Counted from the first letter of the stretch, positions 2,496 to 64,000 are shown. The stretch is DNA of 64,000 nt from an uncultured Helicobacter sp. (GCA_949299115.1 CASFZH010000002.1:1-64000), one strand, 5' to 3'. Translations and numbers: made by a program. Notes: a model not told the origin generated them from the sequence alone.

Positions 2496-5400
2496 ATGAT
2501 TTCAAAGTTTTTTATCAATCGTCCAGCATTTTCTGGTGTGATTTCTATCGTCATTGTAATTGCCGGGCTTTTGTGTATGTTTAATCTTCCTATTGAGCAG
2601 TATCCCAAACTTGTACCTACTCAAGTAGTTGTGCGTGCTGATTATCCCGGAGCAAACGCTCAGACAATTTCTACCAGTGTGGCAAGTATTTTGGAAAATA
2701 GCATTAATGGTGTAGAGGGTATGCTCTACATTCAGACGGCAACTACATCAAGCGGGACAATGATGCTCAATGTCTTTTTTGATAACGAAACTGACCCTGA
2801 TATGGCAGTCGTTAATGTCAATAATCGTGTGCAAGCTGTATTAAATCAGCTGCCTAGCGAGGTGCAACGTCTTGGGGTAACTGTAAGGAAAAATTCTACT
2901 GCTGTGCTAGGACTCTATCAATTCTATTCAGATAATCCAGCACATACACAGCTCTATATTGCTAACTATATTGTGCTCAATATTATTGATGAGGTAAAAC
3001 GCATTAAGGGTGTGGGTGATGTGGAACTTTGGAGTTTGATGAATTATGCTATGCGTCTATGGCTTAAGCCCGACATGCTTGCTGCACATAATCTCACGCC
3101 ACTAGAAGTTATTGAGCGCGTACAAGAGCAGAATTCACAGTTTGCACCTGGAAGGCTTGGGCAAGAGCCAATCGATGGCAGTCAATTTGCCTATACGCTT
3201 ACAACTAAAGGGTTGCTTTCTAGTAAGGAAGAATTTGAAAATATTATTATTCGTGCCAATTCTGATGGTTCAACTTTGCGTCTTAGGGACATTGCTAGTG
3301 TTGAGCTAGGAGCACAAGATTATTTGGAGCGTAGCACCTATAATGGCGTACGTTCTGTGCCAATACGCGTTACTCTCTTGCCCGGAGCCAATATGGTCGA
3401 GGTCGCTGATAAGGTCAATGCCACGATTGCACGCCTATCTCAAAAATTCCCAGAGGGTATGAAATATGCTAATCCTTTTCGTCCAACTGAATTTATCCAC
3501 GCTTCGATGAAAGAAGTGTTAAAAACTTTTTTTGAAGCTATTGTGTTAGTTGTGCTTGTGATTTATCTCTTTTTACAGAATCTAAGGGCTACAATTATTC
3601 CTGTTATTGCTATTCCTGTGTCCATTATTGGGACTTTTGCGGGATTGTATGCGTTTGGATTCTCAATCAATCTTTTGACACTCTTTGGATTAATTCTCGC
3701 CATTGGTATTGTGGTTGATGATGCGATTATTGTCATTGAAAACGTTGAGCGGATAATGCACACCGAACACTTAAACACTAAAGAAGCTACAATAAAATCA
3801 ATGCGTGAAATCACAGGTCCCGTGATAGCTATTGTGTTGGTGCTCAGTGCTGTATTTATTCCGGTGGCATTTATGGGTGGTTTTAGTGGTGAAATTTACA
3901 AGCAATTTGCAATTACTATTGTGATTTCAGTTGTAATTTCTGGTTGTGTCGCACTTTCACTTACTCCTGCACTCTGTGCAATTTTTTTAAAACCTACGCA
4001 TACACAGCCAATTTATCCAGTGCGGAAATTCAATGAATTTTTTGACAAAATGACACTTCGATTTAGTCGTGAGGTAGCACGCGTATTAAAACGGGGAATG
4101 ATTTCTTTGGTGATTTTTGCGTGTTGCATTGGGCTGACCTATCAGCTTTTTCAAAAAGTCCCAACAGGACTCGTGCCAAATGAGGATATGGGGACTATTT
4201 TGGTGCATACGGTTTTGCCTGAGGGGGCTTCACTTTCACGTACTGCACAAGTGCAAAAAGATTTGTTTGAAATGGTAAATAGCACTCCAGAAGTGGCAGA
4301 ATCTAGCATTATAGCAGGATTTAGTTTCTTAGCTAATGGCTTTAAATCAAGTGGAGGAATTAGTTTTATTCGGCTTAAAGATTGGAGTGAACGTAAGGGG
4401 GCGGATCAAAGTGATGTGGCTCTTATTGCTAAATTTAAAAAGCAAGGTGATAGCTACCCCAATGCACGTTTTATTTTTGCCCAAGCTCCCACAATTATCG
4501 GGCTTGATGCGAGTGGAGTCAATATTTTTGTACAAAGCAAGGAAAGTAGCAATATGAATGAGCTTAAATACTACACGGACTTAGTTGTACAAAAGGCTTT
4601 GGAACGTCCAGAGATTAGTAATGCTTTTACGAGTCTTGCGGTAGATACTCCGCAATATGAGGTGTATCTCAATCGCGAAAAAGCAAGTGCAATGAATGTC
4701 CCGATTAATGACGTGTTTCGCACGATGCAAGTAACCTTTGGGAGTTATTATATCAACAATTTTGAACTTTTCTCACGTACCTTTCGAGTCATCGCTCAAA
4801 GTGAACAGGGTTTTCGTACAAGTCCAGAAGATTCTAAAAATATCTTTGTGCGTAGCACAGATGGAAACCTTGTGCCACTTTCTTCACTTTTAGAGTTTAA
4901 ACGTATTATTGGTGCAGAGATTATTAACAGATTCAATCTTTTTCAAGCAGCTCAAATTATTGGTTATACGAATCCGGGATATTCCAGTGGTGATGCTATT
5001 AGAGCGATAGAGGAGGTTGCTATGGAGGTGTTACCACCGGGTTATGACATTGGTTATGCTGGAGCGACTTATCAAGAAAAAGCAAGCTCTGGAAGCGGAA
5101 GCATAGCTTTTGTATTTGGACTTATTTTTGTATTTTTAATCCTTGTAGCACAGTATGAGCGTTGGATTCTGCCTTTAGCCGTGCTTTCTGCTGTGCCTTT
5201 CGCAGTATTTGGGGCAATTTTAGCAACCTATCTTAGAGGATTAGAGAATGATATTTATTTTCAAGTGGGGTTACTTGTGCTTATTGCATTAGCAGCGAAA
5301 AATGCTATTCTCATTGTGGAGTTTGCAACACAGTTAAGGGAGCATGAGAATCTAAGTATAGTAGATTCTGCTATTATGGCGACAAAAATGCGTTTCCGTC

Positions 5401-5624
5401 CTATTGTGATGACATCACTTTGTTTTACCTTGGGTGTATTGCCTTTAGCATTATCTAGTGGTGCTGGGGCATTAAGCAGACATTCTATTGCCACAGGGGT
5501 GATTGGTGGAATGCTTGCAGCAACTTTTTTAGCAGTTTTTTTTGTACCATTATTTTATGTATATCTTATGTATTTTAGTGAATGGATAGCAAAAAAGAGA
5601 GGTGTTCGAGGTAATCGCAGATAA
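2496..5624 (+). CDS. RND-family (HAE1) multidrug efflux transporter, inner-membrane subunit
   Basis: This proton-driven inner-membrane pump subunit of the AcrB/CmeB type normally works with a periplasmic adaptor and a TolC-like channel. The 1042 residues have the family layout: one N-terminal TM helix ([14 protein letters not shown]), a large periplasmic domain, a central TM block, a second periplasmic domain and a final TM block. The proton-relay aspartates are in [17 protein letters not shown] (TM4) and the partner lysine is in [16 protein letters not shown] (TM10), so the pump looks functional. No adaptor or outer-membrane channel gene is next to it, so it is an orphan that must borrow partners. 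I cannot assign it to CmeB, HefC or another named pump. Confidence 0.9.
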
Positions 5625-5787: not shown

Positions 5788-6831
5788 ATGAATAGATTGT
5801 TAAAATGTGTCGGTGCTTTTTTGATAGGGGGATTTTTCGTCGCTTGTGGTGATTCTAAGAGTGATTCCAAAATGGAATCTAGTGCAGAAAATGCAAACAA
5901 AGTTTATACAATAAAATTCGCCCATGTGGTGAGTGCGGGCAGCCCTAAGGGGAAAGCGGCGGATTTGTTTGCCAAGAGGGCAGGGGAGCTTAGTAATGGT
6001 CGCTTGAAAGTCGAGGTTTTCCCCTCTGCGCAGCTTGTCGATGACGATAAGGTCTTCCAAGAATTAAAGCGCAATAATATCCAAATGGCGGCGCCAAGCT
6101 TTTCGAAATTCACACCTATTGTCAAGGAGTTTAACCTCTGGGATGTGCCTTTTATCTTCCGCGATAACGAGCATTTGCATAAGGTAATGGATGGTGAAGT
6201 AGGGCAGATTCTTAAAGATAAAATTGCACAAAAGGGCTTTATCGCACTAGATTATTGGGACTCTGGTTTTAAGCAATTTAGCACCAATAAAAATCCTATC
6301 GTGTTGCCAAGTGATGCTAAGGGGCAGAAAATCCGCATTATGAGCTCTAAGGTGCTAGAGGAGCAAATGAAGGCTATTGGTGCAAACCCACAAAATATTA
6401 ACTTTGGTGAGGTGTATTCGGCACTCCAAACCGGTGTGGTCGATGGTGCGGAGAATCCGCTCTCAAACCTTTATAATTCAAGATTCTATGAAGTACAAAA
6501 ATCTATCACGATGACAAATCATGGATATTTGGGCTATCTTGTGGTAGCAAGTGAGAAGTTTTGGAATGAATTACCCGAGGATTTAAAGGGCATACTCAAG
6601 CAAGCACTTGATGAGGCTACAAGGTTTGAGCGTGAGGAGAGTGAGCGCGATGAGGCAGTGCTACTAGCCAACCTTGAAAAATACGCTAAGGACAATGAGG
6701 GCAAACTCACTATCTATACACTCGATGAGGCACAAAAGGCAAAGTGGCAGGAAGTGATGGTGGCGATTTATCCAAAGTTTTATGATTTAATCGGACAGGA
6801 TCTGATCCAAAAAACGCTTGATACAGAGTAA
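5788..6831 (+). CDS. dctP: TRAP transporter substrate-binding lipoprotein, DctP family
   Basis: This extracytoplasmic binding protein delivers an organic acid to the DctQM permease, which is sodium-coupled in this family. The 347-residue product has a lipoprotein-like signal ending FFVAC, so Cys20 is the likely lipid attachment site. The mature part begins with YTIKFAHVVSAGSPKGKAAD, the usual first strand of DctP proteins. The conserved carboxylate-binding arginine is probably in GQKIRIMSSKV, and the ENPLSNLYNSRFYEV segment is also typical. The ribosome binding site GGGAGG is strong. Lipid anchoring is less common than free secretion for Gram-negative DctP. Base composition is richer in G+C than the murG side. 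The substrate is unknown. Confidence 0.9.
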   Translation: MNRLLKCVGAFLIGGFFVACGDSKSDSKMESSAENANKVYTIKFAHVVSAGSPKGKAADLFAKRAGELSNGRLKVEVFPSAQLVDDDKVFQELKRNNIQMAAPSFSKFTPIVKEFNLWDVPFIFRDNEHLHKVMDGEVGQILKDKIAQKGFIALDYWDSGFKQFSTNKNPIVLPSDAKGQKIRIMSSKVLEEQMKAIGANPQNINFGEVYSALQTGVVDGAENPLSNLYNSRFYEVQKSITMTNHGYLGYLVVASEKFWNELPEDLKGILKQALDEATRFEREESERDEAVLLANLEKYAKDNEGKLTIYTLDEAQKAKWQEVMVAIYPKFYDLIGQDLIQKTLDTE

Positions 6832-6838
6832 GGCTGAT

Positions 6839-6857
6839 TAGCAATCTAGCATTGCTA
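6839..6857 (+). other. Intercistronic stem-loop after dctP
   Basis: TAGCAAT and ATTGCTA form a 7-bp perfect stem with a 5-base loop, just after the dctP stop. No T-run follows, so it is not a standard terminator. A stem here could stabilise the upstream message so that the binding protein is made in excess of the permease, but this is inference. Confidence 0.35.
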
Positions 6858-7013
6858 GTGTCATGCAGAATCTAATATCTAATGAGATGAGGTAGCTAGA
6901 TTTGGTGTGTGATGCGTGTATTTGGAGGACGGAGCAACCCTAGGATCTGCTCCTTGTATAATATATGTAGTGTGGAATACATTGCAATAAATTTAAACAA
7001 AGAAAGGTTGGTT

Positions 7014-7634
7014 TTGAGGTCGGTTTTGTTATTGCTACAAAAACCCTTTAAATGGGTGCATTTAAGCCCGGGAGTCCATCGCTTTTTTAGAATCTTAGAT
7101 GTGATTATCGCGGGTATTAATAAAAATATCGCGGTGCTTGGGCTCGTGGCGGGTGTGCTTATCGTGAGTGTGAATGTCTTTACGCGCTTTTTGGCGAAGT
7201 TCTACCCCGAGATTCACAGCCTTACTTGGGGTGAGGAGGTCTCGACATATTGCTTTATCTGGAGTGCACTCTTTGGGGCGGCGTATGGATTCAGAAAAGG
7301 GGTGCATATCTCGGTGATGATTGTAGTAGAGCGATTTCCCCCAGCAGTGGCAAAGGCGTGCGTGCTTATCTCGTATATTTTGAGTGCGTGCTTTTTGGCG
7401 TTTATGGCGTATGGGGGGTATTTGGTCTGTGAGCTTAATTATGAGTTAGGGCGGTATTCGGAGGCACTGCATAATGTGCCTTTGTGGATTTTCTTGGTGT
7501 GTTTGCCTGCGGCGTTTTTGGGCGCGACTTATCGGGTGATTGAGAAAATCTATGAAATCTCGTGGATGGAGGCTAAAGATGTCGTCAAAACCACGCAAGA
7601 TGAGATTATCCACGATGTGGCGATAAAGGAGTAG
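7014..7634 (+). CDS. dctQ: TRAP transporter small permease subunit, DctQ family
   Basis: DctQ is the four-helix membrane subunit that pairs with DctM. Helices are visible around NIAVLGLVAGVLIVSVNVFT, the TYCFIWSALFGAAYGFRKGV segment, VLISYILSACFLAFMAYGGY and VPLWIFLVCLPAAFLGATYR. The motif LTWGEEVSTYCFIW and the following FRKGVHISV are family hallmarks. The frame is open from a GTG at 6909, but I chose the TTG at 7014 because GAAAGG lies 6 bases before it and the extra upstream residues look non-coding. This gives 206 residues, normal for the family. The next gene starts two bases after the stop, which suggests translational coupling. Confidence 0.85.
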   Translation: MRSVLLLLQKPFKWVHLSPGVHRFFRILDVIIAGINKNIAVLGLVAGVLIVSVNVFTRFLAKFYPEIHSLTWGEEVSTYCFIWSALFGAAYGFRKGVHISVMIVVERFPPAVAKACVLISYILSACFLAFMAYGGYLVCELNYELGRYSEALHNVPLWIFLVCLPAAFLGATYRVIEKIYEISWMEAKDVVKTTQDEIIHDVAIKE

Positions 7635-7636
7635 CG

Positions 7637-7849
7637 ATGCCCTATGTCAATATCAAGATAACGCGTGAGCATGGCGTGCCAACCCAAGCACAAAAAGAGC
7701 AGCTCATAGAGGGTGCGACTAGGCTTGTCTCGGAGGTGCTGGGGAAAAACCCAGCGACTACTTTTGTGATTATCGAGGAGCTAGAGACGGATAATTGGGG
7801 GATTGGCGGCAGGAGCGTTACGCACATACGCCAAGAAAATACAAAATAA
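7637..7849 (+). CDS. 4-oxalocrotonate tautomerase family enzyme inside the TRAP operon
   Basis: This 70-residue protein starts MPYVNIKITREHGVPTQAQK. After Met removal, Pro1 would be the catalytic base, as in the tautomerase superfamily. The C-terminal NWGIGGRSVTHIR resembles the conserved NWGIGG segment of small tautomerases. These enzymes shift enol/keto protons of 2-oxo acids and oligomerise as hexamers. The ribosome binding site AAAGGAG overlaps the end of dctQ, so translation is probably coupled. A tautomerase gene between the Q and M permease genes is unusual and suggests that the imported compound, or a product of it, is an unsaturated or enolisable keto acid. That link is inference. 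Confidence 0.85.
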   Translation: MPYVNIKITREHGVPTQAQKEQLIEGATRLVSEVLGKNPATTFVIIEELETDNWGIGGRSVTHIRQENTK

Positions 7850-7968
7850 AGGGTGGCGGTGCGTTTAGATTCTGTAAAAATCTATTTCAGAGATTTTTAG
7901 GGTTCTAGATTCTGTATTTTTGGATTCTTCATTTGCTAGGCAAATGCGCTAAGGGCAAGAATCTAAAT

Positions 7969-7990
7969 TTATAGAATCTAGATTCTATAA
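7969..7990. repeat. 22-bp perfect palindrome built from the AGAATCTA word
   Basis: Two copies of TTATAGAATCT meet head to head and give a perfect 22-bp inverted repeat in the tautomerase-dctM spacer. The same spacer holds further TAGATTCT or AGAATCTA copies near 7866, 7903 and 7959. It could form a cruciform, or a hairpin in the message. Confidence 0.6.
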
Positions 7991-8018
7991 TAAAATCTAA
8001 GCTCTTAAGGTGCGTTAT

Positions 8019-8040
8019 AGAATCTAGCCGCCTAGATTCT
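8019..8040 (+). other. Hairpin upstream of dctM
   Basis: AGAATCTAG and CTAGATTCT form a 9-bp perfect stem around a CCGC loop, ending 31 bases before the dctM start codon. No T-run follows it. It may fold in the leader of dctM and affect translation or message decay. Its sequence is again the AGAATCTA word, so it may also be just an expression of that repeat. Confidence 0.45.
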
Positions 8041-8071
8041 CACCATAAACCATAAAAAAGGGATTACATAG

Positions 8072-9370
8072 ATGAGTGTTGCAGTATTGTTTATCGTGCT
8101 TTTTGCGTTGATTTTAATCGGTGTGCCTATCGCGGTGGCTTTGGGCATTAGCTCGCTTGTGTGTATGGTGCTTTTTACTTCGCACGACATTACGGGGATT
8201 CCAGAGACTTTTATTTCAGCTTTTAAGCCCACGCTGATGGCGATACCGATGTTTATTTTAGCGGGTTCGCTTTTAAGTAAGGGCAGTGCGGCACAGCGAA
8301 TCGTGGATTTTGCGAAGTCTATGGTGGGGCATTTGCCCGGTGGCTTGCCTATGAGTGCGATTTTGGCTTGTATTATCTTTGCGGCGGTGAGTGGGAGCTC
8401 GCCGGCGACTGTGGTGGCGATTGGCTCGGTGATGTTTTTGGCTATCAAGCAGGCGGGCTATCCGCAAGCCTATGCGGTGGGGGCGATTACGAGTGCTGGC
8501 AGTCTTGGAATCTTAATCCCACCATCAGTGGTGATGATTGTCTATGGGGTTACGGCTAGTGGGCTTAGCGGGCTAGATGGCAAGGAGATTGTCGTCTCTA
8601 TCGAGGCGCTTTTTAAGGCAGGGATTATCCCGGGGCTTATGATAGGGCTTATGATGATGGCTTACACATATTTTGGGGCAAAGCGGCTAGGCTATAAGGC
8701 ACAAAAACCAGAGCCCTTTGCCGTGCGCTTTAAGCAGTTTATGCGTGCGTTTTGGGCGTTGCTTATTATTGTGGTGGTCATTGGCGGGATTTATGGTGGG
8801 CTTTTTACCGCCACAGAGGCAGCGGGTATCGCGGTTGTGTATGCGTTTATCGTCTCGGTGTTTGTGTATAGGGATTTGAAACTCAAAGATTTGTATAGCG
8901 TGTGCTTGGATGCGGCTATCACAACGGCGATGATATTTTTTATTATCGGTTCAGCAGTGGTGTTTGCACATTTCCTCACGAGTGAGCGCATACCTCATCA
9001 TATCGCCGAGTTTCTTATTGCTCAAAATATGAGTTGGTGGGTGTTTTTAATCGCAGTTAATATCTTGCTTTTTATTATGGGGCAGTTTATGGAGCCTAGC
9101 TCGGTGGTGATGATTATGACGCCCCTGCTGCTGCCTATCGCGGTATCTTTGGGGATTGACCCTGTGCATTTTGGGATTATTATGGTGGTGAATATGGAGA
9201 TAGGTATGATAACGCCGCCTGTGGGGCTTAACCTCTTTGTAGCAAGTTCCCTCACGGGTATGGATCTCAAAAATGTAGTCGTCTCTATTCTCCCATGGCT
9301 TGGGGTTATGGTTTTTGGATTGGCACTAATTACTTATATTCCTCAAATCTCACTATTTCTTGTTGGTTGA
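8072..9370 (+). CDS. dctM: TRAP transporter large permease subunit, DctM family
   Basis: This is the transport channel of the TRAP system, 432 residues with about 12 hydrophobic segments, normal for DctM. It starts MSVAVLFIVLFALILIGVPI. Family features are the VSGSSPATVVAIGSVM helical hairpin, the SAGSLGILIPPSVVMIVYG segment and the later NMEIGMITPPVGLNLFV. The gene is separated from the tautomerase by 222 bases containing palindromes, but it is on the same strand with no obvious promoter, so it probably belongs to the same operon. The region is clearly richer in G+C than murG or the DNA after 9370. Confidence 0.92.
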   Translation: MSVAVLFIVLFALILIGVPIAVALGISSLVCMVLFTSHDITGIPETFISAFKPTLMAIPMFILAGSLLSKGSAAQRIVDFAKSMVGHLPGGLPMSAILACIIFAAVSGSSPATVVAIGSVMFLAIKQAGYPQAYAVGAITSAGSLGILIPPSVVMIVYGVTASGLSGLDGKEIVVSIEALFKAGIIPGLMIGLMMMAYTYFGAKRLGYKAQKPEPFAVRFKQFMRAFWALLIIVVVIGGIYGGLFTATEAAGIAVVYAFIVSVFVYRDLKLKDLYSVCLDAAITTAMIFFIIGSAVVFAHFLTSERIPHHIAEFLIAQNMSWWVFLIAVNILLFIMGQFMEPSSVVMIMTPLLLPIAVSLGIDPVHFGIIMVVNMEIGMITPPVGLNLFVASSLTGMDLKNVVVSILPWLGVMVFGLALITYIPQISLFLVG

Positions 9371-9851
9371 TTTTTTTATTCTTGTTTGTGTCTACTCATT
9401 TTTGAGAGACATTATATCTTGTTTGCTAAATATCAAAATTAACAGTGTTTTTGCCAGTTTTTTATAAAATACAATATAATAGATAGAGATATTATTAAAA
9501 ACGATAAAAAGATATATAAAACAGATATATATGCTTTAGAGAATATCTGCGTTGGTAAGCTGTCTATAAAGAGTTCTTTCGGCACTCAGAATATATAAGT
9601 CATTAAGTAAAATATTATGGCTATATTCCAAAAATTTATGGTAGTAATTATGTTATTAAAAATTAAAAAAGTTTGTAAAAAAGTGCATCAAGATAAAAGA
9701 AATTTTTAAAATTATGTGAATCAATATGTTGTAGAAAAATCTAAAAAAGATTTGCTCATTCTCAACAGAGTGCAGACATAATCAAATATAGCGAAAAAAT
9801 ATTGTTTATTTATGAATTGAGGCATCGTTTTTTAATAAGATAGTGTGTATA
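9371..9851. other. Intergenic region between convergent genes, nothing recognised
   Basis: About 480 very AT-rich bases separate the end of dctM from the end of the first radical SAM gene. Short open stretches occur (for example near 9620-9710) but none has a ribosome binding site or recognisable similarity. I saw no clear terminator. The sharp fall in G+C after dctM marks the edge of the GC-richer block. Confidence 0.5.
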
Positions 9852-35657: not shown

Positions 35658-36677
35658 CTACACTAATGGAAACACGCTTTTAGCAATTTTCTCTAACTCC
35701 TCTTGCATATTTGCACATTGCACAATAAGGAGATCTAGTCCTGCTTCTTTGTAAGCACGGATTTTCTCTGCTACTTGTTTAGGTGTGCCTACTAGATTTG
35801 GGCGCAATCCTCGATTTGAGACACTATAATCTTGCTTTGAAACCTCCACATCAAGGTTTGAATTGCCCGTGAAATCCTTATAAGAATTCTCATAATCCGC
35901 ATAATTCTTGATAGTCGTGATTCTCTCTAGCTCCTCTTGTGCCTCGCACTCACTATCTCTCACGATAATATAGCAAGCCATACCAAAGCCCCCAAACGGC
36001 ACTAATCCCGCACGCTCTTTACGTGCTTTCATATCCTTAATCTTCTCACGCACTTCCTCTAGCGTGCCTCCGTGCATAAGGTATTTATCCGCAAACTGCG
36101 TGATAGCCTCTCGCCCACTCTCACTCTCACCCCCAGCATACACCAAAGGCATTTTGGGAGGCTTTGGCTCATTGTAAGAATCCACAAACTCAAAATATTT
36201 ACCTTTATAGCTAAAGGGACTTTCCTCCCAAAATCCTCGCAAAACCTCTGTGTATTCGCGTGTGAGTGTGTATCTATCATCATGTGCATCAAAGCTTATG
36301 CCATATTGCCTTGCTTCCTCTGCCCACCACGCTGAGACCATATTGATACTAAATCGCCCATTGCACATTTGTGAAATAGTGGCAATCTGTTTTGCGGTGA
36401 GGGCGACTTGGTGATATTGCGGACGCAGAGCAGCAAGAATTTCTATCTTTTGTGTAATTGCTGCCAATCCATTTGCCACCGCCCACGCATCGAGTGCAGG
36501 AGCTTTATGCCCTTTGATATCATTGAGATAGAGCTCTGGTACAAGTGTCAAAGTATAGCCTAGCGATTCTGCCTTGAGTGCTAAATCTCTACAATACTCC
36601 CAAGTGCCTTGTGTGCTATCATCATCGACATTGCGTAGCCAACTCCCAAAAACCGGTGTCCAATAGCCAAATTTCAT
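35658..36677 (-). CDS. LLM-class flavin-dependent monooxygenase (SsuD/SfnG-like)
   Basis: This 339-residue bacterial-luciferase-like protein starts MKFGYWTPVFGSWLRNVDDD and has LTLVPELYLNDI, FSINMVSAWWAEEARQYGI, HDDRYTLTREYTEVLRGFWE and MPLVYAGGESESGREA, as in FMNH2-dependent alkanesulfonate or dimethyl sulfone monooxygenases. Its ATG directly follows the stop of the ATP-grasp gene (TAAATG), so the genes are coupled. No flavin reductase is nearby. Base composition is much richer in G+C than the flanks, which suggests transfer. A sulfur-scavenging role is possible, and so is tailoring of a small molecule made with the ligase. Confidence 0.82.
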   Translation of the reverse strand: MKFGYWTPVFGSWLRNVDDDSTQGTWEYCRDLALKAESLGYTLTLVPELYLNDIKGHKAPALDAWAVANGLAAITQKIEILAALRPQYHQVALTAKQIATISQMCNGRFSINMVSAWWAEEARQYGISFDAHDDRYTLTREYTEVLRGFWEESPFSYKGKYFEFVDSYNEPKPPKMPLVYAGGESESGREAITQFADKYLMHGGTLEEVREKIKDMKARKERAGLVPFGGFGMACYIIVRDSECEAQEELERITTIKNYADYENSYKDFTGNSNLDVEVSKQDYSVSNRGLRPNLVGTPKQVAEKIRAYKEAGLDLLIVQCANMQEELEKIAKSVFPLV

Positions 36678-37676
36678 TTAACGCTCCTTTTGTGTATTGT
36701 GTAGTGCTTGGTGTAAAAACTCCACAATCCTATCAGCGGCAGCTTTCCTACCTTGCTTTCTTAGACTAGATTCTACATTGCCATTGTAATTTGTATTGGT
36801 ATTAATATCATACACGACAATTTCGCCATCAAAGCTTTCTATAAACTCCACTCCTGCCACCTCTATCCTGTGTGCCTGCAAAAACTGCTCTAATGTCTGC
36901 ACAAGCGGCGTGTCAGAATCTATATCTGTGCGAAGTGAAAATTTATCTGCCCTATCTATCTCACATGCCCCACCTGCTAACTCTGGCAAAGCTTTGCTCC
37001 GCTCTATATCACACGCATCCGCAGGGCATAGCTCAAAAGCCCCATTGCTCGTATCCACACGCACAGCGTAATAAAATTTTCCACCGATAAACTCAAGGCG
37101 TGTGATAAAAAACTCCTTTGCCCTAATGTATTCTTGCAAAAGTGTAATACCATCAATAGGCAGCTCAAACTCACTAGATTCTATGTATCCCCTAAACTCT
37201 GTGAGATTCTCAAATAATCGTACGCCCAGCCCCTTGCCACCTTGATTATGTTTAGTGATGAAGGGTGTCCCAACCTCTTTGGCATACTCTAACAGATTCT
37301 CTTTGCCAAATACCGCGATAGTCTTTGGAGTGCGAAACCCTGCTTTATTGAGTGCGAGGTATTGCCGCACCTTGCTAACTTCTAGCTCTAGCACATTGCT
37401 GCCATTTACCACACGCCTACCATAGGATTCTAACCACGTTAAAACCGCACGCCCATAATCTTTAGAATATATATTGCCTCTTGTGTGGCTTGAAGCAGAG
37501 AGTCTACTCCAAAACACACCTTGTGGTGGTGGGCTATCTAAATCAATACTCCCTTGGGTAAGCAAAATCTCATTAAAGGCTACCCCTGCTTTTTCAAATG
37601 CCTCTGCAAAAGGCACAATCCATTCTGGATTCTCATGGAGGATAAAAACCCCTTGTTCGTAGTTGTTATATAACAT
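36678..37676 (-). CDS. ATP-grasp ligase, RimK-like
   Basis: The frame overlaps the upstream monooxygenase gene by 11 bases, and AAGGA 8 bases before the ATG at 37676 supports a 332-residue protein starting MLYNNYEQGVFILHENPEWI. It has the ATP-grasp signature: TPFITKHNQGGKGLGVRLF (P-loop-like), LLQEYIRAKEFFITRLEFI, and the metal-binding IVVYDINTNTNYN near the C-terminus. Such enzymes form amide bonds between a carboxylate and an amine. The substrate is not evident. Placement between two flavin monooxygenases suggests a small biosynthetic or catabolic pathway rather than ribosomal S6 modification. Confidence 0.8.
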   Translation of the reverse strand: MLYNNYEQGVFILHENPEWIVPFAEAFEKAGVAFNEILLTQGSIDLDSPPPQGVFWSRLSASSHTRGNIYSKDYGRAVLTWLESYGRRVVNGSNVLELEVSKVRQYLALNKAGFRTPKTIAVFGKENLLEYAKEVGTPFITKHNQGGKGLGVRLFENLTEFRGYIESSEFELPIDGITLLQEYIRAKEFFITRLEFIGGKFYYAVRVDTSNGAFELCPADACDIERSKALPELAGGACEIDRADKFSLRTDIDSDTPLVQTLEQFLQAHRIEVAGVEFIESFDGEIVVYDINTNTNYNGNVESSLRKQGRKAAADRIVEFLHQALHNTQKER

Positions 37677-39108
37677 ATTCCATATCCTTTTTTGTAGGTT
37701 TGACTCTGCCTGTAGCAGCGTAGTCGTTAATCGTGGATTTCGCACCATTTACTCTATATCGTGCGGCGATATGCTCATGTCCTAGCCTATCGCCCTTACC
37801 AAAGAGCTTATGACGCAAGCTCCCCTCTGTGTAGTTTTGCTTATACACACCCCTTGCTTGGAGCTCTGGCACGATAAACTCCACCACATCAGCAAAGCTC
37901 CCCGGAGTCGTGGCATAGGCGAGATTGAATCCATCGGCATCACTGTATTCTATGAAATCTTGGAGCATATTTGCCACATTTGTCGGTGAGCCTACGAATT
38001 TTGGTCCTTGGCAGCCTATGCCTGTGAGTTTGATTAAATCACGCAAAGTCCATTCCTTGCCCTCATCGGTGGTGGAATTACGCAGGGCTTCGACCTGTGC
38101 GACAATCGCATTAGACTTGATATGGCTTAGTGGCTCATCGAGCTCATAGCGGCTTAAATCCACCCCAAGCCAACCCGAATTTATCACAAGTGCACCCTCT
38201 GTACTAGCGTAGGAAAGCAAATCTTTATATTTTGCCTGTGCAAGATTCTCATCAGAATCTGTGATAATAGTGGCTAAGACATAGATTTTCGCACTATATG
38301 GATCTCGTCCAGCAGCGATAAGCGCATCACGCACTTGCTTGACTGCGACTTTGGCGTATTCTTTGGTAGGGGGTGCGATGAATATAGCCTCGGCGTGTGT
38401 AGCGGCAAACTTACGCCCACGTGCGGAATTACCCGCTTGGAAAAGCACAGGGGTACGCTGGATACTTGGTTCACACAGATGGATTCCGGGCACATTGAAA
38501 TACCTCCCATTATGCCCGATGTGGTGAATCTTGCTCGGGTCTGCAAAATCCCCGCTCTTAGAATCTAAAATCACCGCATCATCTTCCCAACTCCCTTCTA
38601 GGAGCTTGTAGATGACTTCCATATACTCATCAGCTAACTCATATCGCTCATCATGCGGTAGCTCACTCCCACCCATATTTTTATTGGCACTTGGGAGATA
38701 GCCTGTTACGATATTCCAACCCACACGCCCTTTGGTGAGATGGTCGAGCGTACTAAGGCGTCGTGCAAAAGGAAAGGGATGCTCAAAAGGCACGCCAGCG
38801 GTTACCCCAAAGCCTAAGTGCTTGGTTACACCAGCACCGATTACAGCGAGTTGTATGGGGTCATTGACAGGCACTTGCAGGGCGGTTTTTAACGCTCCTA
38901 AGTCATTCCCCCTATACACATCATACACACCCAGCACATCAGCGATAAACACCGCATCAAAGAGTCCCTTTTCAGCGATTTGTGCGATTTCCTGCCAATA
39001 CTCTATATCTTTATATCGCAAGGCTTTGTCGTTTGGATAACGCCACAATCCCGGGCTTAAATGTGCCACGCAATTCATTTCAAAGGCGTTGAAATTTATA
39101 GTTTTCAT
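37666..39108 (-). CDS. LLM-class flavin-dependent monooxygenase (NtaA/SnaA/DszA type)
   Basis: This is the first gene of the operon, 480 residues from the ATG at 39108 (GGAG upstream). Segments such as FNAFEMNCVAHLSPGLWRYP, LSTLDHLTKGRVGWNIVTGY, HDERYELADEYMEVIYKLLE and RTPVLFQAGNSARGRKFAAT are typical of the nitrilotriacetate/dibenzothiophene sulfone monooxygenase family, which needs FMNH2 from a separate reductase. G+C is about that of the two following genes and well above the flanks. It overlaps the ATP-grasp gene. Confidence 0.88.
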   Translation of the reverse strand: MKTINFNAFEMNCVAHLSPGLWRYPNDKALRYKDIEYWQEIAQIAEKGLFDAVFIADVLGVYDVYRGNDLGALKTALQVPVNDPIQLAVIGAGVTKHLGFGVTAGVPFEHPFPFARRLSTLDHLTKGRVGWNIVTGYLPSANKNMGGSELPHDERYELADEYMEVIYKLLEGSWEDDAVILDSKSGDFADPSKIHHIGHNGRYFNVPGIHLCEPSIQRTPVLFQAGNSARGRKFAATHAEAIFIAPPTKEYAKVAVKQVRDALIAAGRDPYSAKIYVLATIITDSDENLAQAKYKDLLSYASTEGALVINSGWLGVDLSRYELDEPLSHIKSNAIVAQVEALRNSTTDEGKEWTLRDLIKLTGIGCQGPKFVGSPTNVANMLQDFIEYSDADGFNLAYATTPGSFADVVEFIVPELQARGVYKQNYTEGSLRHKLFGKGDRLGHEHIAARYRVNGAKSTINDYAATGRVKPTKKDMEYVI

Positions 39109-39120
39109 GCATTTCTCCAT

Positions 39121-39684
39121 TATTTAGATTTAATATAATATTTATTGATTATAAATAACCTATATATATTATAATATTATTTTTAATATATTAAAATATA
39201 ATTTTTATTATAATAAAAGTAATTAATTATAATATATTAATTTCAATATGAATAATTTATTGTATTTAAACTATTTAAATATGTCAAGATATATTATTTT
39301 TTATCATTACAATACAAAAAAAAGATTTGATAATGCTATGAAAGAGTTGAAAAGAGGGATGTATCAAAAAATTGCAAATAAATATTGCCAATATATAATT
39401 CTATCATGTAAAGATAATAAGGAGTATTGCAGTACACATTTTTAAAACCCTGCTTTTAATTACTTAAGCTGAATGAGAAACAAGAAAGTAAAATCTCACA
39501 CAGCATTGTGTTAGATAGGAGATAAATTCTATATAATCTTTCTTATAGGGATAGAAATAAAAAGAGAATTTACATAAAAGTCTTTATCTGTCAAATAAAT
39601 GAATTACTTTATATGGTCATCATAATAAAATAAACTATATTCTTATTCAAATCATGTATTTAGTTTATATAATAATTTAATAAC
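39121..39684. other. Extremely AT-rich intergenic region
   Basis: Between 39121 and about 39245 there is almost no G or C, with many short self-complementary stretches, and it lies directly upstream of the monooxygenase operon. The rest is AT-rich with no convincing gene. A 65-codon open frame at 39248-39445 has no ribosome binding site. Confidence 0.5.
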
Positions 39685-61686: not shown

Positions 61687-62868
<1,182 letters not shown>

Positions 62869-63045
62869 GGATACCCCGCAAAGTTCTCTAGCTAAAGATT
62901 CTATAAGCTTGTGGGCTTTGCGTAGGATTCTATAATCTCATGCAAATGCTTCTTTGAGGTAGAATCTTACCTTTGTCCAAAGTTATAGAATCTAAAGCAT
63001 AAATGGGGGATTGATACAATGAAGCACTATATAAGCAGAGGTGAA

Positions 63046-63095
63046 TTAGCATAATCTTAAGCGGGAGCGTAAAATCCTGCTTAATACTGTGCTAA
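63046..63095 (+). other. Structured intercistronic RNA element between nifS and nifU
   Basis: An outer stem (TTAGCA, 63046-63051, with TGCTAA, 63090-63095) encloses an inner 10-bp stem (TTAAGCGGGA, 63057-63066, with TCCTGCTTAA, 63075-63084, one G-U pair). The loop is GCGTAAAA. No T-run follows. It lies 54 bases before the nifU start. Confidence 0.55.
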
Positions 63096-63149
63096 TCATT
63101 AGTAATAATGGATAGACAAGTTTATGATAAACAAAGATAAGGAATGATA

Positions 63150-64000
63150 ATGGCAAAGAATGATTTACTTGGTGGTGCACTTTGGGACGCATATAGCAAA
63201 AAAGTCAGTGAGAGAATGGATAATCCTACACACCTAGGTGTTTTGACACAAAAAGATGCAGATGCAAGAGGTGCGAAACTCATCGTAGCAGACTATGGTG
63301 CAGAATCTTGTGGCGATGCAGTGCGGCTGTATTGGCTGGTAGATTCTAATGATGTGATTATTGATGCGAAGTTTAAGAGTTTTGGTTGTGGGACAGCGAT
63401 TGCAAGCTCGGATATGATGGTGGAGCTTTGCCTTGGCAAAAAGGTGCAAGATGCAGTAAAGATCACTAATCTTGATGTAGAGCGGGCATTGCGTGATGAT
63501 CCCGATACGCCCGCAGTCCCGGGGCAAAAAATGCATTGCTCGGTAATGGCGTATGATGTGATAAAAAAGGCAGCGGGTATGTATCTAGGCAAGAGTGAAG
63601 AGGACTTTGAAGATGAAATTATCGTGTGTGAATGCGCACGCGTGAGCCTCTCAACGATTAAAGAGGTGATTAAACTCAATGACCTAAAAAGCGTGGAGGA
63701 AATTACCAACTACACCAAGGCTGGGGCGTTTTGCAAAAGCTGTATCAAACCCGGTGGGCATGAGAAAAGAGAATATTATCTCGTGGATATTTTGGCTGAT
63801 GTGCGTGCTGAAATGGAAAGAGAGGCATTGAAAGAAAATGTCGCAAAAAGTGCAAGTGGTACGTTAGCGTTTAAAGATATGACCATGGTGCAAAAAGTTA
63901 AGGCGGTAGATTCTGTGATTGATACTCAAGTGCGTCCGATGCTTATGATGGATGGGGGGAATATGGAGATTTTGGATATTAAAGATTCTAGTGATGGGCA
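63150..64000 (+). CDS. nifU: Fe-S cluster scaffold protein NifU (cut by the window end)
   Basis: The ATG at 63150 with AAGGA upstream opens 283 codons with no stop before the edge. It starts MAKNDLLGGALWDAYSKKV. The IscU-like domain has FGCGTAIASSDMMVELC and PGQKMHCSVMA with the scaffold cysteines. A central [2Fe-2S] domain has VCECARVS and FCKSCIKPGG. The C-terminal NifU domain begins with VDTQVRPMLMMDGGN-like sequence near the edge. NifS builds clusters on this scaffold. It is separated from nifS by 281 bases with a structured element. Confidence 0.92.
   Translation, partial: MAKNDLLGGALWDAYSKKVSERMDNPTHLGVLTQKDADARGAKLIVADYGAESCGDAVRLYWLVDSNDVIIDAKFKSFGCGTAIASSDMMVELCLGKKVQDAVKITNLDVERALRDDPDTPAVPGQKMHCSVMAYDVIKKAAGMYLGKSEEDFEDEIIVCECARVSLSTIKEVIKLNDLKSVEEITNYTKAGAFCKSCIKPGGHEKREYYLVDILADVRAEMEREALKENVAKSASGTLAFKDMTMVQKVKAVDSVIDTQVRPMLMMDGGNMEILDIKDSSDG

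Follow-up and report, generated by a model that had tools for sequence, protein, structure and literature searches.

The closest described systems to the locus studied here are the salvage pathways of Bacillus subtilis for 2-succinocysteine (scm, or yxe) and for S-alkylcysteines (cmo, or ytm/ytn), in which LLM flavin monooxygenases of the NtaA/DmoA family cleave the carbon-sulfur bond. In both cases the amine is blocked before cleavage and transport is linked to the pathway: N-acetylation must precede the attack of the LLM enzyme on S-modified cysteines, and a deacetylase acts afterwards (PMC9706529, PMC12757645). The cmo system additionally employs two flavoenzymes, CmoO and CmoJ, that act in series (PMC10863075).

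The locus lies within a stretch of 64,000 nucleotides (the window) from an uncultured Helicobacter sp. (GCA_949299115.1, CASFZH010000002.1:1-64000), part of contig C2 in a genome of 2.62 Mb, and combines two LLM monooxygenases with an ATP-grasp ligase. Like scm and cmo it includes a member of the NtaA/DmoA family, but the ligase takes the place of the N-acetyltransferase and no deacetylase was seen; neither of these two enzyme types was found in the unit of the window or among the scanned neighbours, which are a part of all neighbours. The first-pass annotation of the sequence could name no pathway with such genes, and our search of the literature on ATP-grasp enzymes with luciferase-like or sulfonate monooxygenases and on related sulfur pathways likewise returned no described pathway that contains all three. 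The enzymes come from known superfamilies and the type of pathway is known; the ligase-coupled unit is undescribed in the literature searched.

All three genes are encoded on the minus strand. NTA (37666..39108) codes for an FMN-dependent LLM monooxygenase of the NtaA/DmoA family with 480 residues (PF00296, TIGR03860), GRASP (36678..37676) for an ATP-grasp ligase of 332 residues with a RimK/LysX/ArgX-like fold (PF08443, AlphaFold2/Foldseek), and SSU (35658..36677) for a further LLM flavin monooxygenase of 339 residues (PF00296) from a clade near SfnG and SsuD. No LLM monooxygenase other than NTA and SSU was found in this genome. The genes had been reported to overlap or abut, and the coordinates and both junctions were confirmed: NTA and GRASP share 11 bases (37666..37676, minus strand), an overlap that probably couples their translation, and the TAA of GRASP directly abuts the ATG of SSU (TAAATG). 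Both junctions have good ribosome sites, and that of SSU is a strong AAAGGAG motif inside the 3' end of GRASP. About 150 bases upstream of NTA, a candidate sigma-70-type promoter, TTGACA-17-TACAAT (39259..39287, minus strand), has the top score in the region with 11 of 12 consensus positions, a call that is a consensus match only, in an AT-rich region with many matches.

A gene-neighbourhood search for an NtaA-type, an ATP-grasp and an LLM gene had been put forward as a check on the locus. Among 80 GRASP loci that were fetched, 21 carry NTA, GRASP and SSU near one another in this order, a recurrence that puts the arrangement far beyond what chance would give; the same conservation of the gene set upholds the earlier view that they form one unit. 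SSU is found directly downstream of GRASP in 65 of the 80 loci, although all were retrieved through the ligase and a comparison of GRASP with NTA as the partner of SSU is consequently one-sided, and three of the 15 loci without SSU end less than 500 bases from GRASP at the end of a contig. In 44 of the 65 GRASP-SSU pairs no close homologue of NTA lies within the sequence fetched, so the logic of two monooxygenases is not universal. The register of the NTA/GRASP junction (-7) is common to 10 Helicobacter loci, and the pairwise distances of the three proteins, calculated for the 21 loci and the window, correlate with r 0.67-0.86. One GRASP gene, at 8283-9404 of locus L145, stands alone without adjoining NTA or SSU; its genome (G008) is among the few Helicobacter genomes with a sulfite reductase.

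Carriers, among them other gut bacteria and actinobacteria from soil, occur in Helicobacter and Campylobacter, in MAGs of Neisseriaceae and Rhodocyclaceae and in Actinomycetota, with open reading frames in the high-GC loci called using codon-position G+C. In a sample of 249 Campylobacterota genomes, GRASP is present in 16, representing 6 of 56 genera. Nothing similar at the DNA level was found in E. coli genomes, and a search of plasmids yielded only distant GRASP relatives in Pediococcus and Spirosoma, plus SSU homologues in Deinococcus. On the Pediococcus plasmid (L098, 7467-9962) GRASP comes straight after a dicarboxylate/amino-acid symporter whose annotation is split into two pieces by an IS30 transposase.

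This patchy spread and the contrast in GC3 suggest that the operon was horizontally transferred. Its three genes have a G+C content of 0.43-0.47 (GC3 0.39-0.46) versus 0.28-0.34 (GC3 0.18-0.25) for the flanking genes, so that the earlier description of a G+C far above the flanks is accurate for the genes on either side, but other genes in the window are rich as well: values of 0.40-0.49 also occur in the RND and TRAP genes (3-9 kb) and in the genes similar to nifS and nifU (62-64 kb). Composition alone therefore proves little, and as a proof of recent transfer the high G+C is weakened. The nifS/nifU-like genes (61693-63998, G+C 0.42-0.45) imply that high values mark some apparently core genes too. 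At the other end of the window, an RND-type efflux gene (2496-5624) precedes a block of TRAP-type transporter genes (5788-9370, read as DctP-, DctQ- and DctM-like, with a G+C of up to 0.49), possibly another transferred block. The PLD-type gene that flanks the operon is present in 12 of 14 genomes of the genus; in a search for the empty site, neither rpmB nor def was near this gene in the 11 other genomes fetched, and the insertion site is therefore not datable.

NTA matches PF00296 (E 4e-52) and reaches 511 bits with the NtaA/DmoA model TIGR03860 (cut-off 279.7, model positions 1-422), which makes it a member of that subfamily. At this level the designation NtaA-type is appropriate, but the closest solved relative is the dimethyl-sulfide monooxygenase DmoA (PDB 6ak1, 520 bits, aligned over nearly the whole length) rather than NtaA or EDTA monooxygenase. 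Other relatives are LadA (3b9n, 457 bits), riboflavin lyase (270), YtnJ/CmoJ (232) and DszA (230). We know of no requirement for a ligase in the case of DmoA.

SSU matches PF00296 (E 7e-37), belongs to the same LLM branch as SsuD, MsuD and SfnG, and aligns over its full length to SfnG as well as to PDB entries 8vw6 (416 bits) and 3rao (382 bits), with which it groups. Its best score among the NCBI families, 225 bits with the SfnG equivalog TIGR04021, falls below the cut-off of 383 and thus outside that family, and the SsuD equivalog TIGR03565 (cut-off 518) gives it 145 bits. Residues C54, R226 and H228 of SsuD, which we take to form its active site or pocket, align with Ala, Ala and Tyr in SSU. 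The score and the three replacements rule out SsuD itself, and the label SsuD-type given in the first-pass annotation has to be abandoned; SSU belongs to an uncharacterised LLM clade near SfnG and SsuD. Neither monooxygenase is close to those of the B. subtilis systems, as NTA scores 232 bits with YtnJ versus 520 with DmoA, and SSU only 19 bits with the MsnO8 model TIGR03558.

GRASP matches the RimK family PF08443 with 25 bits (cut-off 21). When its AlphaFold2 model (pLDDT 87, pTM 0.86) was submitted to Foldseek, the best folds were ArgX (3vpb, E 3e-18), RimK (7qyr, 9e-16) and LysX, in agreement with the previous reading as an amide-type, RimK-like ligase, and both the fold and the ATP-binding residues are those of the RimK-type ATP-grasp superfamily. 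With RimK, LysX and ArgX the protein shares the fold and the glycine and lysine elements of the ATP site, but sequence identity is about 18% and the acceptor loop of RimK, RSNLHRGG, is replaced by a family-specific ELCPADAC. It is not a RimK alpha-L-glutamate ligase (TIGR00768, 69.5 bits, cut-off 143). Invariant residues are K142, N144, G147, G149, G151, E277, D290 and N292 along with C217 and C222, and these two cysteines are unchanged even in the relatives from Pediococcus and Spirosoma. The near-invariant loop F-E-L-C-P-A-D-A-C is part of residues 213-241 (36954-37040, minus strand), exactly the stretch in which the model is uncertain; the invariance of its two cysteines points to a site for a substrate or a metal. 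LysX and ArgX protect an amino group by ligation, and no gene for a LysW carrier was seen in the NTA-GRASP-SSU unit.

The absence of a reductase or transporter nearby, stated in the first-pass annotation, is correct for the copy in the window, and elsewhere in its genome PF03358 gave only a partial match (26.6 bits, contig C57), but relatives of the operon do carry an FMN reductase or an MFS transporter. An FMN reductase (PF03358) is linked in L044 and has homologues in L032, L034 and L035, making four loci; in L044 a cystathionine gamma-synthase/lyase-type enzyme and CysK come after it, behind SSU. CysK-CGL is located before GRASP in L036 and divergently in L023, a Cys/Met PLP enzyme stands beside operon genes in L070 and L080, and O-acetylhomoserine sulfhydrylase is found 3' of SSU in many Curtobacterium. 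A metabolite:H+ symporter of the MFS type is inserted between NTA and GRASP in L023, L025 and six Campylobacterota regions, of which one is the L025 genome again and one (L131) is at a contig end. In L025, from Helicobacter labetoulli, a putative cyclase-family hydrolase (PF04199, 3738-4634) lies between NTA and the transporter gene. Further transporter genes that adjoin the operon encode cystine-type ABC systems (L128, L132), MetNIQ (L130) and the thiosulfate transporter TsuA (L139), and a Pantoea plasmid has NTA relatives together with ssuD and methionine ABC genes.

With an FMN reductase, genes of cysteine and methionine metabolism and transporters for sulfur compounds as neighbours, the most likely function of the unit is the acquisition or scavenging of organosulfur by FMNH2-dependent chemistry, and we are fairly confident in inferring such a role. 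Organosulfur scavenging by way of a conjugated intermediate had been suggested before; conservation and the neighbouring sulfur genes speak for the scavenging, and a conjugate would fit the presence of the ligase.

In the model that we propose, a horizontally mobile operon would provide masking by the ligase followed by FMNH2-dependent cleavage of a C-S bond, a counterpart to the N-acetyl route of B. subtilis; for the model in its entirety we put the chances slightly below even. It starts from the observed genes, their coupling and conservation, the enzyme families, the ligase fold and the sulfur-gene neighbours. GRASP would spend ATP on the ligation of a carboxylate and an amine on a small sulfur compound. 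Most likely, the group masked in this way would be the amino (or carboxyl) group of an S-substituted amino acid or of a similar molecule, and GRASP would thereby have a blocking role by ligation, as LysX and ArgX do when they protect an amine. NTA and SSU, supplied with reduced flavin, would oxidize the masked compound and cleave its carbon-sulfur bond, NTA attacking a thioether-like bond in the manner of DmoA, CmoJ and YxeK, and SSU acting on a neighbouring oxidation state. The sulfur freed in reduced form, as thiol or sulfide, would then enter cysteine or methionine synthesis. A general peptidase may take off the mask; masking would suggest a dedicated deacylase or peptidase, though no such enzyme was seen to be conserved within the unit. 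The sulfur role, the amide masking, the order of the steps, the substrate and the reduced product are the parts of this model that we infer.

The same enzymes might instead serve desulfonation, with GRASP masking an aminosulfonate such as taurine, homotaurine or a cysteate derivative, SSU freeing sulfite like SsuD or MsuD, and NTA widening the range, a scheme that we regard as rather unlikely. It would be in keeping with the placement of SSU on the SsuD/SfnG side of the LLM superfamily, with the occurrence in Spirosoma of an LLM similar to sulfonate monooxygenases close to GRASP, and with Deinococcus deserti, where an SSU homologue (49%) and an ATP-grasp ligase adjoin CuyA and CuyB. On plasmid 3 of this organism (L114, 5876-10023) the genes for CuyA, CuyB and the ligase, an ATP-grasp protein outside any Pfam family, form a row with overlapping ends and precede that for the SSU homologue, and the neighbours pass the NCBI models for the cysteate racemase CuyB and the D-cysteate sulfo-lyase CuyA. 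No homology to GRASP is detectable in the Deinococcus ligase, and D. peraridilitoris also has a pair of ligase and SSU; the partnership with another kind of ligase reinforces the link between ligase and SSU, yet points toward sulfonates and sulfite. The loss of C54, R226 and H228 from SSU argues against desulfonation, as does the distribution of the siroheme sulfite reductase family PF01077 (NIR_SIR), to which our survey was confined. The genome of the window lacks NIR_SIR, and so do all 14 Campylobacterota genomes with a complete operon in the 249-genome sample, as compared to 79 of the 235 others that have it (p 0.006, not corrected for ancestry). Sulfite would therefore not be assimilable via the known siroheme route in these organisms, an argument against sulfite being the useful product. 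Among carriers of any GRASP in the sample, 2 of 16 have NIR_SIR versus 77 of 233 others (p 0.10); one exception has an orphan GRASP, the other GRASP and a transporter at a contig end with no SSU downstream. In Microbacteriaceae, a two-domain sulfite reductase is present in 1 of 36 carriers versus 20 of 164 others (p 0.13). The association is confounded by ancestry and weak once this is considered, and as a proof of a reduced product the depletion is only suggestive; the evidence leans toward thiol or sulfide rather than sulfite.

The relationship of NTA to DmoA (520 bits) and the best NCBI family score of SSU, with SfnG (225 bits), would also agree with the use of methylated sulfur compounds similar to DMS or DMSO2 by two monooxygenases, the ligase being engaged in something unrelated or at a later stage, for instance in the disposal of an aldehyde or acid product. 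We consider this improbable, as it is the ligase that accompanies SSU in 65 of the 80 loci, found via the ligase and one-sided in that respect, while NTA is often absent; moreover, a ligase would be needless for neutral volatiles, and SSU remains below the SfnG cut-off. ATP-grasp enzymes and flavin oxygenases are commonly paired in tailoring, and the tailoring of a small amide had been listed among the possible roles. Biosynthesis or tailoring of an amide natural product nevertheless appears highly improbable to us, as no other recurring biosynthetic genes were seen and the neighbours are genes of sulfur assimilation and uptake.

Masking by ligation ahead of C-S cleavage may define a new class of organosulfur salvage, spread by transfer and with many carriers that lack a siroheme sulfite reductase, in which amide or peptide conjugation by an ATP-grasp enzyme is the obligate handle for the flavin-dependent step; we advance this wider proposal tentatively and with some doubt. 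If it is true, ligation would join acetylation and direct attack as a third means of opening S-modified small molecules to flavin monooxygenases, and a function would be assigned to an ATP-grasp family and to an LLM clade in which at least one crystal structure is an orphan (3rao, deposited as 'putative'). The proposal would also account for the way in which some enterohepatic Helicobacter, Campylobacter relatives and Microbacteriaceae that have no siroheme sulfite reductase could obtain sulfur from organic compounds.
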